A DNA stretch of 64,000 nucleotides from Rhodospirillaceae bacterium (GTDB lineage: Bacteria > Pseudomonadota > Alphaproteobacteria > CACIAM-22H2), in assembly GCA_022843945.1 (NCBI GenBank), contig JALHMR010000012.1, positions 62,001 through 126,000 on the forward strand, in the 5' to 3' direction. A model generated the notes under the pieces. It was given only the letters and a program-made list of their open reading frames with translations. It was not told the origin of the DNA and did not search any database. Position 1 is the stretch's first letter, and each line of letters starts with the position of its first letter. Positions 904 to 9,609 of the stretch are shown here, piece after piece. Made by a program: the position numbers and the translations under genes.

Positions 904-997
904 GCAGCGCTTCCCCCGTATTCCGGCCATTGTGAAGACTGGAGCGCCGGGTTGGCAATAGCTTAAAGTGGGCCAGCCATTCCCGGGGGTGGCGCCC

Positions 998-2518
998 ATG
1001 CCGCGTGGTCCAAGCGCAGAGAAACAGCCCGCTTCAGCCGCCTCGCCCAGGACGGCGGGCGGCCGCTCGCAAACCGCGATTTTCGGCAAGCGGGTCCGCG
1101 ATTTCATGCGCCCGACGGTGATGACCGCTTCGGCGGAGACGCCAGTCGGGCAGGTGATCGCCGACATGGCGGCCGAGGGCCGCTCAAGCGTGGTGGTCGT
1201 GGACGGCGGCGGCCGGGTCTTCGGCATCCTCACCGAGCGCGACGTGACGAGGCGGGTGGCCGTACGGGCGGCAAGCGATGCGCCGGCCGGCAGCTTCGTC
1301 AGCCGCCCGGTGCACAGCGTTACCGCCGATGACTATCTCTACCGCGCGGTCGCGCGCATGCGTCGCCTCAACCTCCGGCATATGCCGGTGGTCGATGGCG
1401 GCGGTCGGCCGGTCGGCATGGTCAACCTGATCGACGCCATCGGCGTCGCCGCCGACCAGATGCTCCGCCAGCTCGATCACCTGACGCGCGACAGCACCAT
1501 CGACGGCATGGCGGAGGTCAAGCACGCCCAGGTCGAGGTGGCCAGCGATCTCCTGGCCGACAACCTGCCGGCGCCCGAGATCCAGTCGCTGATCACCGAC
1601 GTCAACCACGACATCCATCGCCAGGTGCTGCAGGCCGCGGAGCGTTCCCTGGTCGAGGCCGGCTGGGGCGAGCCGCCGGTCCCCTACACGCTGCTGATCA
1701 TGGGCTCGGGCGGGCGCGGGGAGAACTTCCTCTATCCCGACCAGGACAACGGCTTCATCCTCGCCGACTACCCGGACGACGAGCACACGCGGATCGATGC
1801 GTATTTCGTGGCCCTGGCCGAGCGCTTCAACATCGATCTCGACCGCGTCGGCTTCCCGCTGTGCAAGGGCCATGTCATGGCGCGCAATCCGGTGTGGCGG
1901 AAGACCGCCTCGCAGTGGCGCGAGCAGGTCGAGCTCTGGGCGCGGCGGCGCAGCCCCGTCGCCATCCTGTTCGCCGACATCTTTTTCGATTTCAAGGCGG
2001 TGGCCGGCCCGCTCGCCGCCGGCGAGGAGCTGCGGCGGCAGGTGACCGAGATCCTCAAGACCTACCCGGCCCTGCTGTCGATGATGGTCCAGGACGAGAC
2101 CAACAAATCCGTGGCGCTGGGCCTGTTCGGCCGGCTGGTCACCGACTCCTCGGGGCAGAGCCCGGGGCGGGTCGATCTCAAGATGCGCGGGACCATGCCG
2201 CTGGTGGCGTCGGTGCGGCTCTGGGCGCTCAAGCATGGCGTGCCCGAGACCGGTACCCTGGCACGCCTGGCGGCGCTGCGGGCGGCCGACGCGCTCAACC
2301 GCGACGATGCCGATGAGCTGATTGCCGCCTTCAACCACGTGACCTACTATCTGCTCCGCCAGCAGCTTGAGGATTTTCGTGCCGGTCGCCATGTCGGAAA
2401 CTTCGTCGATCCCAGCGTGCTCCTGCGCCGCGAGCGCGAGGAATTGCGGGCGTCGTTGCGCGTCATCGAGCGTTTCCGGACGGAGACCCGCAGCACCTTC
2501 ACCGGTGGTATGTTCTAG
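998..2518 (+). CDS. CBS-pair / DUF294 putative nucleotidyltransferase
   Basis: About 506 residues. After a short Ala/Pro/Ser-rich N-terminus come two CBS motifs (roughly residues 35-145), then a GlnD-like nucleotidyltransferase domain carrying GSGGRGE followed by YPDQDNGFI, the Gly-Ser plus Asp-x-Asp signature of the fold. A helical DUF294 C-terminal domain follows. CBS pairs usually bind adenosine nucleotides, so nucleotide-gated transfer of a nucleotide to a protein or small molecule is likely; the substrate is unknown. ATG at 998 follows GGGGGTGG; an in-frame GTG lies at 968. Family members often sit near solute-symporter (SSF) and DnaQ-like genes, as here. Confidence 0.88.
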   Translation: MPRGPSAEKQPASAASPRTAGGRSQTAIFGKRVRDFMRPTVMTASAETPVGQVIADMAAEGRSSVVVVDGGGRVFGILTERDVTRRVAVRAASDAPAGSFVSRPVHSVTADDYLYRAVARMRRLNLRHMPVVDGGGRPVGMVNLIDAIGVAADQMLRQLDHLTRDSTIDGMAEVKHAQVEVASDLLADNLPAPEIQSLITDVNHDIHRQVLQAAERSLVEAGWGEPPVPYTLLIMGSGGRGENFLYPDQDNGFILADYPDDEHTRIDAYFVALAERFNIDLDRVGFPLCKGHVMARNPVWRKTASQWREQVELWARRRSPVAILFADIFFDFKAVAGPLAAGEELRRQVTEILKTYPALLSMMVQDETNKSVALGLFGRLVTDSSGQSPGRVDLKMRGTMPLVASVRLWALKHGVPETGTLARLAALRAADALNRDDADELIAAFNHVTYYLLRQQLEDFRAGRHVGNFVDPSVLLRREREELRASLRVIERFRTETRSTFTGGMF

Positions 2519-2521
2519 CCG

Positions 2522-2839
2522 ATGAAGAAAGCCCTGATCCTTGCCGCCGTGGCACTGCTGCTGGCCGTTTCGCCGGTCCAGGCCGAACCCGAGACGCCGC
2601 CGGTTCCCGACACCAGGGCCGCGGTGATCACCGGGGCGGTTCTCGGCGCGGTGATGGTCACCGCCGTCGCGGCGACGGTCTTCGGCACCACCGTCGGGCT
2701 CACGGTCGGCGCCATCTCGGCGGCCAACGTGGCGTTGGTCGCGGTGGCCGACAGCGCCCTCGATGCGCGTGAGACCCTAAGCCGCTACTGGAACGGCACG
2801 CAAACGGCGCCGGAGCCCCAGCGGCGCCCTGATTCCTGA
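2522..2839 (+). CDS. Small exported or membrane protein, unknown
   Basis: 105 residues. It starts with a clear Sec signal (MKKALILAAVALLLAVSPVQA, likely cut after AQA-like VQA) and a Pro-rich linker, followed by a long Gly/Ala/Val/Thr-rich hydrophobic stretch (about residues 35-80) and a polar tail. It begins four bases after the DUF294 stop, so the two genes are probably co-transcribed. The glycine-rich hydrophobic segment could be a membrane hairpin. I recognise no family. The gene ends three bases before the stop of the convergent sensor kinase. Confidence 0.7.
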   Translation: MKKALILAAVALLLAVSPVQAEPETPPVPDTRAAVITGAVLGAVMVTAVAATVFGTTVGLTVGAISAANVALVAVADSALDARETLSRYWNGTQTAPEPQRRPDS

Positions 2840-2841
2840 CG

Positions 2842-5598
<2,757 letters not shown>

Positions 5599-5850: not shown

Positions 5851-7980
5851 CTAAAATTGCTCCTGCCGCAGGCGGATATCCAGCGTCATGTTCGAGGCCC
5901 GGATCAGGTCACCCAGGGTGGTGATGCCGCGCGCCTCGAGCAGGTCGACCAGGCGCAGGAAGACCGCCGCCGTGACCAGCGCGTCGCCCAGGGCCGAATG
6001 CCGGCCGGAGACCTCGACGCCGAGGCGCCGGGCGATCGAATCGAGATCGTGCTCGCCGAAATCGGGATAGAGGAACATCGAGATCAGCATCGTATCGAGC
6101 GCCAGCATGGCGAAGCGCGGACCGCCATCGGCCTCCTTGAGCCGGATGAATTTGAGGTCGAAGGCCGTGTTATGGGCGACCAGCACCGCGTCGCCGACGA
6201 AGGCGCGGAACTGCGGCAGCGCCACGCTGAGCGGCGGCGCCCCGGCGACCATGGCGTCGGTGATGTTGTGGAAGCGGATCGAGTCGGGCGGGATGGTGCG
6301 GCCGGGATCGATCAGCCGGCTGAAGGTCTCGCCGGTGAGGATGCGGCCGTTGACCACGCGCACCGCGCCGATGGCGATGATCTCGTCGCCCTGCGAGGGG
6401 TTGAGGCCGGTGGTCTCGGTGTCGAAGACCACGTAGGGCACGCTGCGCAAGCCCCGTCCCTCGAGCCCGCGATCGGTCGGGGCGAGGTGCATGAGGTCGA
6501 AGTCGTAGAATTGCGGCCGGGCGGGCAGGGGGCCGTTCTCGGGCAGGCGGAACTGGATGCGCGTGGGCGCGGGCAGCGGCAGGCGCAGCACCGCGCGGCC
6601 GGCTCCCGCGGCCCCCGGGCCCGAGGCTTGGCGGCTCCAGATCTCGCTGCCGTGCCGGGCCAGGACCTCGGCCAGGCCGGGAGCCCCCAGCGCCTCGGGC
6701 AGCGGCTCGCCGAGCCAGGCGTTGAGCGTGGCCTCGGCGATCGGCTCCCCGGCCCAGGCGATCTCGACATAGACCCGGCGATCGCCGAGCAGAGCCTCGA
6801 TGTCGAAGCTCGTCTCGCCGGTATGGGCGGCGAGGTTGCGCAGCAGCTGGTCGAGGGCGATGACCAGAGAATGGCTGTCGCCGTGCAGCCAGAGCGGCAC
6901 GCCGACCATGGTCACGACCGGTCCGCCGCTATCGGCCAGGCGGCGGATCACGCAGTTGAGCAGGTCGACCGAATGGATATCGGCCAGCGGCCACAGCCCG
7001 GTGCTGAGTTCGCGGTTGTCGCGCTCGATGGCTTCGAGCTTGAGGCCCAGCGCCTCGCTTTCGCGGACGATGATCTGCTCGAACTCGCGGCGCTTGGCCG
7101 CGTCGATATCGGGAAATTCGCCGAGCGTCTCGGCCGCCGCCCGCAGGTTGGCCAGCGGCGAGCGCAAGCCGTCGGTCGCCGCCCGCAGCAGCCGGTCGCG
7201 GCGGTTGCGCTGGGCGATGTCGCGGGTGACGTCGGCCAGGGTGAGGATGTAGCCGGTCGGCTCGCCCCCGCCATCGGCGATCAGCATCATCCGCCCGCGC
7301 AGCAGGGCGCGCGCGTCGACCGTGGCGCAGACCAGCGGCGCCGTCGGCTCGCCGTTCGAGTCCGCCGGCTCCCGGTGGATCAGGCGGTCGAGCGTGTGCA
7401 GCACCGGCTCGCGGGTCACCAGGTTGAACAGCGAGCGGCCGAGGCCGAGCTCGCCCGAGACGGCGAGCAGCGACAGCGCCACCTGGTTGTAGAGCAGGAT
7501 GCGGTGGTCGAGGCTGCACACCACGACACCTTCGCTCAGGTCGCGCAGGATGCCCTCGAGCAGGCCTTTCTGCTCGTCGACCCGGCGGGTGGCGGCGGCC
7601 ACCGAGCGCTCGGTGTCGGTCCGGGCCGTTGCCACGCGGCGGGTCAGCGCATTGACCAGTTGGGGCAGGGGCGCGAAGCCGGGGTAGCGGCCGGGCTCGA
7701 TATCGGCGTCGCGCGCCGCCTCCGAGAGGAAACGGATCTCCGCGGTCAGGGCGCTGAGCGGCCGGACGAACAGGACATCCACGGCCAGCCAGGCGGCGCC
7801 CAGCCCGACCGCAATGGCGAAGACGGCGGCAGAAATGATGCCGCCGTTGCGGGCCTCCTCGGGAACGGCCGCGACCACCGCCCCGAGGGTGACGAGAGCA
7901 GCAACGCCGATGGCGGCAATGCTGACGGCGAGCCGCCGCCGCAGGGCGGCTCGCTGGCGCTCGATGTCGGAGCGCGGCAT
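5851..7980 (-). CDS. Membrane PAS / pseudo-histidine-kinase fused to DnaQ-like exonuclease
   Basis: 709 residues. Two membrane helices (about 17-40 and 47-72) precede a HAMP-like stretch, a PAS domain (about 138-255), a kinase-like dimerisation region and a remnant ATPase-like region, then a DEDDh 3'-5' exonuclease (about 515-690). The H-box position reads TDGLRSPLANLR: Asp270 and Gly271 stand where His-Glu is expected, so autophosphorylation is not possible by the usual route. The exonuclease residues are intact: D520 and E522 (FDTETTG), D608 (AFDLKF), H661 and D666 (HSALGD). It is in an operon between a receiver protein and the SSF-kinase. Membrane signals may control hydrolysis of short RNA, DNA or a nucleotide messenger; the substrate is unknown. 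Confidence 0.9.
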   Translation of the reverse strand: MPRSDIERQRAALRRRLAVSIAAIGVAALVTLGAVVAAVPEEARNGGIISAAVFAIAVGLGAAWLAVDVLFVRPLSALTAEIRFLSEAARDADIEPGRYPGFAPLPQLVNALTRRVATARTDTERSVAAATRRVDEQKGLLEGILRDLSEGVVVCSLDHRILLYNQVALSLLAVSGELGLGRSLFNLVTREPVLHTLDRLIHREPADSNGEPTAPLVCATVDARALLRGRMMLIADGGGEPTGYILTLADVTRDIAQRNRRDRLLRAATDGLRSPLANLRAAAETLGEFPDIDAAKRREFEQIIVRESEALGLKLEAIERDNRELSTGLWPLADIHSVDLLNCVIRRLADSGGPVVTMVGVPLWLHGDSHSLVIALDQLLRNLAAHTGETSFDIEALLGDRRVYVEIAWAGEPIAEATLNAWLGEPLPEALGAPGLAEVLARHGSEIWSRQASGPGAAGAGRAVLRLPLPAPTRIQFRLPENGPLPARPQFYDFDLMHLAPTDRGLEGRGLRSVPYVVFDTETTGLNPSQGDEIIAIGAVRVVNGRILTGETFSRLIDPGRTIPPDSIRFHNITDAMVAGAPPLSVALPQFRAFVGDAVLVAHNTAFDLKFIRLKEADGGPRFAMLALDTMLISMFLYPDFGEHDLDSIARRLGVEVSGRHSALGDALVTAAVFLRLVDLLEARGITTLGDLIRASNMTLDIRLRQEQF

Positions 7981-7987
7981 GCCTTTA

Positions 7988-8365
7988 TCAGGCGGCCGCG
8001 GACCCGAGCAGCCGCTTCACCCTCTCCACCAGCTCGCGGGTGGAGAACGGTTTGGTCACGTATTCGTCGGCGCCCATGGCCAGGCCCTTCTCCTGCTCGA
8101 TGTCGCGGCTGCGCGCCGTGAGCATGATGATCTTGGTCCCCTTGCCGCCGGGCTGGGCGCGGATCGTCTGGCAGACGTCGTAGCCGTTGCGGCCCGGCAT
8201 CATGACGTCGAGCAGGATGAGATCCGGCATGCGCTCCTTGACTGCTGCGAGGGCGGCGTCACCGTCACGCGCCACCCGCACGTCGAAGCCCGCCTGTTTC
8301 AGCAGGAACTCGATCGACAGCACGATGTTGGGCTCGTCGTCGACCACCAGGATCGAGCGTTTCAT
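7988..8365 (-). CDS. CheY-like single-domain response regulator
   Basis: About 125 residues, a stand-alone receiver with no output domain. It carries VVDDEPN (acidic pocket), the phospho-acceptor Asp in LILLDVMMPGRNGYD, Thr in MLTAR and Lys in VTKPFS. It is the first gene of the operon leading to the exonuclease and the SSF kinase (seven bases to the next gene), so it probably relays phosphate within this sensory module. ATG at 8365 is chosen; an in-frame TTG at 8371 has the better-spaced GGGAGG and could be used. Divergent from the G3E GTPase gene. Confidence 0.9.
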   Translation of the reverse strand: MKRSILVVDDEPNIVLSIEFLLKQAGFDVRVARDGDAALAAVKERMPDLILLDVMMPGRNGYDVCQTIRAQPGGKGTKIIMLTARSRDIEQEKGLAMGADEYVTKPFSTRELVERVKRLLGSAAA

Positions 8366-8439
8366 CGACAAGAACGCCTCCCATATCCGCGGGCGGACCC
8401 CGCGTTGGCGAGGCTTAGCTTAGCGCCGCTCGGGCGCGC

Positions 8440-8472
8440 TTGTCACGACCGGGCGCGTGCTATAACACGCGC
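8440..8472 (+). promoter_or_regulatory. Candidate promoter with perfect inverted repeat abutting the start codon
   Basis: TTGTCA (8440-8445) and TATAAC (8461-8466), 15 bases apart, resemble -35 and -10 elements. The -10 sits in the loop of a perfect inverted repeat: GCGCGTG (8453-8459), CTATAA, CACGCGC (8466-8472). The right arm ends at the base before the ATG at 8473, and no ribosome-binding site is visible, so the transcript may be leaderless with a regulator covering the -10. The repeat is seen directly; its function is inferred. Confidence 0.4.
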
Positions 8473-9609
8473 ATGAGCGACACCCCAAGCGCCGCGCCGG
8501 CGCCCATTCCCGTCTCGGTCATCACCGGCTTCCTGGGCAGCGGCAAGACCACCCTGCTGGGCAAGCTGCTGCGCCATCCCGGCATGTCCGAGACGGCCGT
8601 GATTATCAACGAGTTCGGCGAGATCGGCCTCGATCACCAGCTCATCGAGGCCGCCGACGGCGAGCCGGTGGTGATGAGCAGCGGCTGCCTGTGCTGCACC
8701 GTGCGCAACGACCTGGTCGAGACGTTGCGCGGGCTCTACCTCAAGCGGGTACGCGGCACGGTGCCGGAGTTCAAGCGGGTGGTCATCGAGACCACCGGCC
8801 TGGCCGATCCCGCACCCATTCTGCACACGCTGATGGAGGACCCGATCGTCCAGGCCTATTTCAGCCTCGACGCGGTGATCTCCACGGTCGATGCGCTGAA
8901 CGGCGAGTGGCAGCTCGATGCCCAGATGGAATCGGTGAAGCAGGCGGCGGTCGCCGACCGCATCGTCTTGACCAAGACCGATCTCGCCAGGCCCGAGGTG
9001 GTGGCCGGCCTCAAGGCCCGCCTGCACCAGCTCAATCCCGGCGCGCCGATCATTCCCGCGATCCAGGGGGAGATCGACCCGGCCCTGCTGTTCGATGCCG
9101 GGCTCTACAACCCGACGACCAAGAGCATCGACGTCCAGGGCTGGCTGCGGGCCGAGGCCTATGCCCCCGCTCATGAGCAGGGGAGCGGCCATGCGCATGG
9201 TCATGATCATGGCGATGGGCATGATCACCATCATCACGATCCGGCGCCGCTGGACGTGAACCGGCACGACGCCCGTATCCGGGCGCATTGCCTCCTGGTC
9301 GACGAGCCGTTCGACTGGGACTCCTTCAGCCTGTGGATGGGCTCGCTGGCCAGCTACCACGGCGAGAAGCTGCTGCGGGTGAAGGCCATCCTGAACATCG
9401 TGGGCGAGGAGGGGCCGGTGGCCATCCACGGCGTGCAGCACATGTTCCATCCCCCGGCGCGGCTGCCGGCCTGGCCGGATGCCGACCGCCGCTCCCGGCT
9501 GGTCTTCATCACCAAGGACCTGTCGCGCGAGTTCCTCGAGAAGTCACTCGCCGAATACCGGGCGCAGGCGGCGAAATCCGCCGCGATGAGCAAAACCACC
9601 TCACCCTGA
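8473..9609 (+). CDS. G3E family GTPase (CobW / COG0523 metallochaperone)
   Basis: 378 residues. The N-terminal P-loop GTPase has Walker A GFLGSGKTTLL, the metal-binding SGCLCCTVR (CxCC), ETTGLADP and the base-specific TKTD motif. A His/Asp/Gly-rich loop at about residues 235-255 (HAHGHDHGDGHDHHHH) precedes the C-terminal CobW domain. COG0523 proteins deliver Zn, Co or other metals to client enzymes. The neighbourhood offers both metals: a Zur-like site (12208) and cobalt/B12 uptake genes. The last codons lie inside a palindromic repeat that begins at 9599, so the natural C-terminus may have been altered by the repeat. Subfamily and metal are uncertain. Confidence 0.9.
   Translation: MSDTPSAAPAPIPVSVITGFLGSGKTTLLGKLLRHPGMSETAVIINEFGEIGLDHQLIEAADGEPVVMSSGCLCCTVRNDLVETLRGLYLKRVRGTVPEFKRVVIETTGLADPAPILHTLMEDPIVQAYFSLDAVISTVDALNGEWQLDAQMESVKQAAVADRIVLTKTDLARPEVVAGLKARLHQLNPGAPIIPAIQGEIDPALLFDAGLYNPTTKSIDVQGWLRAEAYAPAHEQGSGHAHGHDHGDGHDHHHHDPAPLDVNRHDARIRAHCLLVDEPFDWDSFSLWMGSLASYHGEKLLRVKAILNIVGEEGPVAIHGVQHMFHPPARLPAWPDADRRSRLVFITKDLSREFLEKSLAEYRAQAAKSAAMSKTTSP

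Follow-up and report, generated by a model that had tools for sequence, protein, structure and literature searches.

We analysed a 64 kb stretch of DNA from a Rhodospirillaceae bacterium (64,000 nucleotides, hereafter the window) around a minus-strand gene at 5851..7980, which starts with ATG and encodes a 709-amino-acid protein that joins a pseudo-histidine kinase to a DEDDh exonuclease. Seven bases upstream lies a minus-strand gene for a single-domain receiver (REC; 7988..8371) in which D11, D12, D55, T85 and K107 are intact; its ATG is at 8365, with an in-frame TTG ahead at 8371. At 2842..5598, an SLC5/SSS sodium:solute symporter is fused to an intact histidine kinase (SSF, HisKA and HATPase_c, the last at E 3e-30), which retains both its H-box (VTHELRTPL) and its HATPase. 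On the minus strand, the REC, exonuclease and symporter kinase genes follow one another head to tail; converging on them is a plus-strand gene for a CBS-DUF294 putative nucleotidyltransferase of the PP_0354 type (968..2518). This last gene is a recurrent neighbour of both long and short exonuclease homologues.

Two other neighbours were considered as functional parts and dropped: a FixJ-like response regulator (217-873, minus), divergently oriented next to the CBS-DUF294 gene and reaching 53.5 bits where the ErdR cut-off is 390, has no conserved copy beside the homologues, and a CobW-type GTPase (8440-9609) is a conserved neighbour in near relatives only. The sole Rfam match in the window is a cobalamin riboswitch (RF00174; 13229-13417, minus; 127.5 bits), with small membrane-protein ORFs just downstream of it (13037-12234).

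From its N to its C terminus, the exonuclease protein consists of two transmembrane helices, a HAMP-like segment, a PAS domain, a pseudo-DHp, a pseudo-CA, a linker and the DEDDh exonuclease. Hydropathy places the helices at residues about 16-37 and about 48-71, with a short loop of ~10 residues between them. They are followed by a HAMP-like helix-loop-helix in the AlphaFold model (about 72-125), PAS (147-253; Pfam PAS_4, E 3.5e-5), pseudo-DHp (252-328; Pfam HisKA sub-threshold at 261-311, E 0.004), pseudo-CA (331-476), a conserved RPxFYDFD linker (488-495) and the exonuclease domain (511-709, nucleotides 5854..6450 of the minus strand; Pfam RNase_T at 517-674, E 2.7e-35). An earlier note on this DNA had read the layout as HAMP, PAS, pseudokinase and nuclease. 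The PAS, pseudokinase and nuclease assignments hold and the HAMP assignment is not borne out: Pfam HAMP matched one of 51 family members (E 0.05) and did not rise above noise, such that the segment after the second helix may be called HAMP-like at most. The whole-protein model has a mean pLDDT of 87.6 and a pTM of 0.46, a low value that leaves the individual domains confident and their mutual arrangement not. The entire architecture is kept in 80 loci (the best 80 of 471 relatives from a GTDB genome scan), and the layout is therefore not a product of chance.

The H-box begins at T269 and reads TDGLRSPL: codons 270-272 (7165..7173, minus) specify Asp-Gly-Leu in place of His-Glu-Leu, and Asp270 occupies the phospho-acceptor position. 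These residues, and the five exonuclease residues discussed below, are where the earlier note had placed them. Its call of a dead histidine kinase also stands, and extends to the whole family. Position 270 is D or E in the window protein as well as in nine full-length relatives of the same class, and across 81 sequences (the window and 80 relatives) the residue is E in 66, D in 10, Q in two, N in two and V in one. It is thus acidic in 76 of 81 rather than a constant Asp, and it is never His. Among 51 non-redundant relatives the distribution is similar (E 37, D 9, Q 2, N 2, V 1), and about two dozen further DHp-bearing relatives from plasmids, alphaproteobacteria and gammaproteobacteria (the last read by eye) carry E, D, Q, S, T, Y, R, V or A, and likewise never His. 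Altogether, about 105 DHp-bearing relatives yielded neither a single His at this position nor an intact-His ancestor.

The ATP-binding motif of the module has been lost as well. When mapped by hhalign, the G1 motif DxGxG reads WxG here, with its Asp replaced by Trp in all 51 non-redundant relatives, and the HATPase_c profile matches just one of the 51 (E 0.05). Despite these lost residues the fold remains that of a histidine kinase: the DHp-CA region is modelled by AlphaFold with a pLDDT of 91.5, the CA superimposes on the PrrB CA domain over 131 residues (VIA-align Z 14.0, rmsd 2.9), and the best Foldseek match of the DHp-CA is the HK853-RR468 complex (E 6e-12), with DivL and RetS (6dk7) also listed. 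The histidine kinase module is dead family-wide with its fold retained, which marks it as a stable, selected pseudo-kinase and not a decaying gene. A role for the pseudo-DHp as a phosphatase of the receiver is disfavoured: the canonical HExxT/N motif is missing, with Gly at +1 and mostly R, A or G at +4.

The exonuclease has had a different fate. D520, E522, D608, H661 and D666 are invariant in 81 of 81 sequences (the window and 80 relatives), bearing out the earlier observation that every DEDDh residue is kept; judged by these residues the enzyme is apparently intact, and 3'-5' activity is predicted. Among the matches listed, its closest solved structure is the Thermotoga PolC exonuclease (2p1j, E 4.3e-26); the other nearest sequences and folds include E. 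coli epsilon (DnaQ), DinG, ExoX and Cas2-DEDDh, and in NCBIfam it best matches other DEDD exonucleases along with PolC and DinG. The nuclease thus looks PolC/DnaQ-like, sharing the fold and all five catalytic residues of those enzymes, but it lies outside any polymerase and is joined to a membrane sensor. The earlier note had proposed a short RNA or nucleotide messenger, such as pGpG or pApA, as its substrate. DEDDh enzymes of the RNase_T superfamily do include oligoribonuclease; however, that enzyme was not among the best family, sequence and fold matches listed for this domain, and we saw no gene related to cyclic dinucleotides in the locus. The proposal is left unsupported, and we consider it very improbable.

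The symporter kinase is the likely phosphodonor of the adjacent REC. In the entire genome that holds the window, the pseudo-DHp profile matches one protein besides the pseudo-kinase itself, namely this symporter kinase (E 1.1e-10), and hhalign aligned the transmitter regions of the two proteins with a probability of 98.9, including the post-alpha-1 segment EIL..NPD....R..F..I..ES.

We classified 130 non-redundant homologues by whether a DHp was present and whether a co-oriented REC was adjacent. REC adjoins the exonuclease in 94 of 100 scorable loci with a DHp, compared with 0 of 23 without one (Fisher p 9e-20 from raw counts, for an association that is phylogenetically clumped). On the exonuclease tree the DHp changes seven times, with only two independent contrasts on well-supported branches, both usually in the expected direction. 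Because there are only two such contrasts, and no significance after correction, the linkage is suggestive and is not proof of correlated evolution; we have given up a formal claim of DHp-REC co-evolution despite the extreme counts. The DHp-bearing relatives that lack an adjacent REC (L082, L120, L150, L173, L180 and L181) are mostly second copies or come from poorly sampled lineages. The L082 genome holds a second pseudo-kinase exonuclease copy with a REC (L126/L148), and the L180 and L181 genomes also hold second copies (L171, L172).

Such linkage might also be seen if REC were a mere output of the symporter kinase that shuttles to other targets and sits beside the exonuclease by operon inheritance, with the pseudo-kinase serving as a dimerisation or PAS-relay scaffold that binds no receiver. 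REC does adjoin the symporter kinase at separate loci too, the DHp-REC linkage is clustered on the tree, and a DHp by itself can act as a dimer scaffold. A shuttle is harder to reconcile with the absence of REC from all 23 DHp-less loci and with its persistence beside the exonuclease at loci where the symporter kinase is missing or encoded elsewhere. Where the two genes lie apart, each commonly has a REC of its own (L061/L062, L116/L119/L121-L123, L087/L142, L102/L141 and L117/L140). Furthermore, three exonuclease-linked RECs have lost the phospho-Asp and are still adjacent: L101 (Gly, 2818-3234), L102 (Ala, 7174-7656) and L117 (Gly, 7240-7647). All three loci are without a symporter kinase, none of the complete RECs that adjoin a symporter kinase shows such a loss, and the losses represent at most two independent events on the tree. 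Having lost the phospho-Asp and stayed in place, these RECs would owe their retention to binding and not to phosphorylation. These three loci are pairs of a pseudo-receiver and a pseudo-kinase. The separate RECs and the phospho-Asp losses favour a direct partnership between REC and the exonuclease protein, judged from sequence and gene order. A shuttled REC beside an inert scaffold is, in our estimate, unlikely, also in view of the conservation of the docking face described below.

Other lineages can do without the module, since homologues lacking a DHp manage the same exonuclease without a REC. Many of these homologues retain PAS and exonuclease (L046-L053, L153 and L174), and others are an exonuclease alone (L044, L045, L157, L166 and L168). 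They make it conceivable that the nuclease is controlled mainly through its membrane and PAS part, by redox or a metabolite, that REC only fine-tunes it or is titrated, and that the DHp-less proteins represent the core function; the reported phenotype of the short Pseudomonas putida homologue PP_0353 (PMC9927547) fits such a core function. Set against this, the DHp/CA module is retained in most sampled lineages, at roughly 36-78% identity to the window protein and with strong column conservation, and is therefore under selection. We regard control chiefly through the PAS part as improbable, though less so than breakdown of a messenger.

If REC binds the pseudo-kinase, alpha-1 of the pseudo-DHp is the candidate site. 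We mapped the docking residues partly from the specificity positions of HK853, which we take to include +8, +11 and +15. As a set, the docking-equivalent positions exceed random alpha-1 positions in conservation (permutation p 0.013): among the 51 relatives, R273 is conserved in 50, A277 in 44, N278 in 44, A281 in 46 and A282 in 47, and T285 is variable. In DivL, mutations +3, +7 and +12 residues past the His site weaken binding of DivK~P (PMC4211667); the first of these sites is R553, the equivalent of R273. Alpha-1 thus fits a conserved response regulator-docking face, although conservation of this kind is partly expected of any DHp. The idea, raised in the earlier note, that the receiver might dock on the pseudokinase agrees with both this face and the 94/100 versus 0/23 linkage.

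The closest parallel is DivL of Caulobacter. Both proteins have a membrane anchor, a PAS domain and a DHp-CA fold in which the catalytic His is replaced and the Arg three residues beyond it is kept; both have a single-domain receiver as partner (putative here), with information passing from receiver to pseudo-kinase (proposed here). They differ in that DivL has Tyr at the His site, where the present family has Glu or Asp, and in that DivL acts on the kinase CckA and has no nuclease, whereas the output here is a covalently attached DEDDh exonuclease. The presumed kinase here is the symporter-histidine kinase, and binding of DivK~P has been shown for DivL (PMC4211667), whereas REC binding is deduced here. 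RetS, a pseudo-like hybrid kinase that controls GacS, likewise uses a histidine kinase fold for protein-protein control, but it acts on a separate kinase, whereas the protein described here probably partners a receiver and has an exonuclease as its output. Our literature search found no earlier description of a pseudo-kinase-exonuclease fusion.

A second parallel concerns the neighbourhood and, together with the symporter kinase (5598-2842, minus), was overlooked in the earlier note: the CrbS/MxtR acetate-pyruvate regulon with PP_0353. In P. putida, one operon under MxtR/ErdR, a symporter-kinase system for acetate, encodes both the exonuclease PP_0353 and the CBS protein PP_0354; when PP_0353 is deleted, growth on pyruvate is impaired, and mRNA degradation has been put forward by the authors as a speculation (PMC9927547). 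In P. aeruginosa, PA3232-PA3235, which include actP, are induced on propionate (PMC9765439). As in the window, PP_0353 and PA3232 of this MxtR/ErdR (CrbS/CrbR) regulon place an RNase_T exonuclease beside a CBS-DUF294 protein with a link to an SLC5 symporter-kinase, a homology that rests on family, neighbours and published description. Unlike the window protein, PP_0353 has been described simply as an RNase_T-family exonuclease, in an account that mentions no pseudo-kinase module (PMC9927547), and control there is transcriptional, through a DNA-binding regulator (CrbR/ErdR); the adjacent regulator here is a REC-only protein, paired with a built-in pseudo-kinase.

Gene rows in other genomes have a similar content. 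On a plasmid of Marivivens sp. JLT3646 (L136, 1911-10905), acs, DUF4212, symporter, DUF294, hypothetical, REC and pseudo-kinase exonuclease genes follow one another on one strand, a row that constitutes an acetate-uptake operon including the nuclease. The row in Paracoccus denitrificans PD1222 (gene PDEN_RS25415) contains DUF294, a small protein, the symporter kinase, REC and the exonuclease. With the PP_0353/PA3232 regulon data, these rows make a link to small organic acids reasonable; for the organism of the window, a link to acetate or pyruvate would follow by analogy.

Together, these results lead us to propose a DivL-like, reversed pseudo-kinase that reads a REC, probably phosphorylated by the symporter kinase, and has a covalent 3'-5' exonuclease as its output, a proposal to which we give an even chance. 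The symporter-histidine kinase next door would sense a small organic acid of the acetate or pyruvate type and phosphorylate the single-domain receiver, which would then dock on the alpha-1 face of the pseudo-DHp in a membrane-anchored dimer, as DivK~P does on DivL. The pseudo-DHp/CA, presumably incapable of autophosphorylation and, lacking the HExxT/N motif, of a canonical phosphatase role, would integrate receiver docking with the state of the PAS domain. The resulting conformational change would set the activity or the access of the C-terminal exonuclease, which might trim RNA or DNA ends during carbon-source shifts. Phosphorylation of REC, its docking, PAS/REC integration and nuclease gating are the biochemical events we infer; through them, a histidine kinase module would have changed roles, from transmitter to receptor.

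To our knowledge, very few pseudo-histidine kinases that read a receiver have been described, DivL being one. The present family numbers 471 relatives from one scan of GTDB species. It may represent a post-transcriptional branch of two-component signalling, in which a symporter kinase acts through REC on a dead kinase that switches a membrane exonuclease, coupling nutrient sensing to nucleic-acid decay without a transcription factor; we put this broader reading forward tentatively, as somewhat less probable than the mechanism itself. If it is correct, this large family, with its covalent nuclease and its linked genes for a receiver and a kinase, would allow direct tests of 'reversed' two-component signalling that are read out by enzyme assay, and would suggest how PP_0353, whose role is so far unexplained, acts within the acetate/pyruvate regulon.
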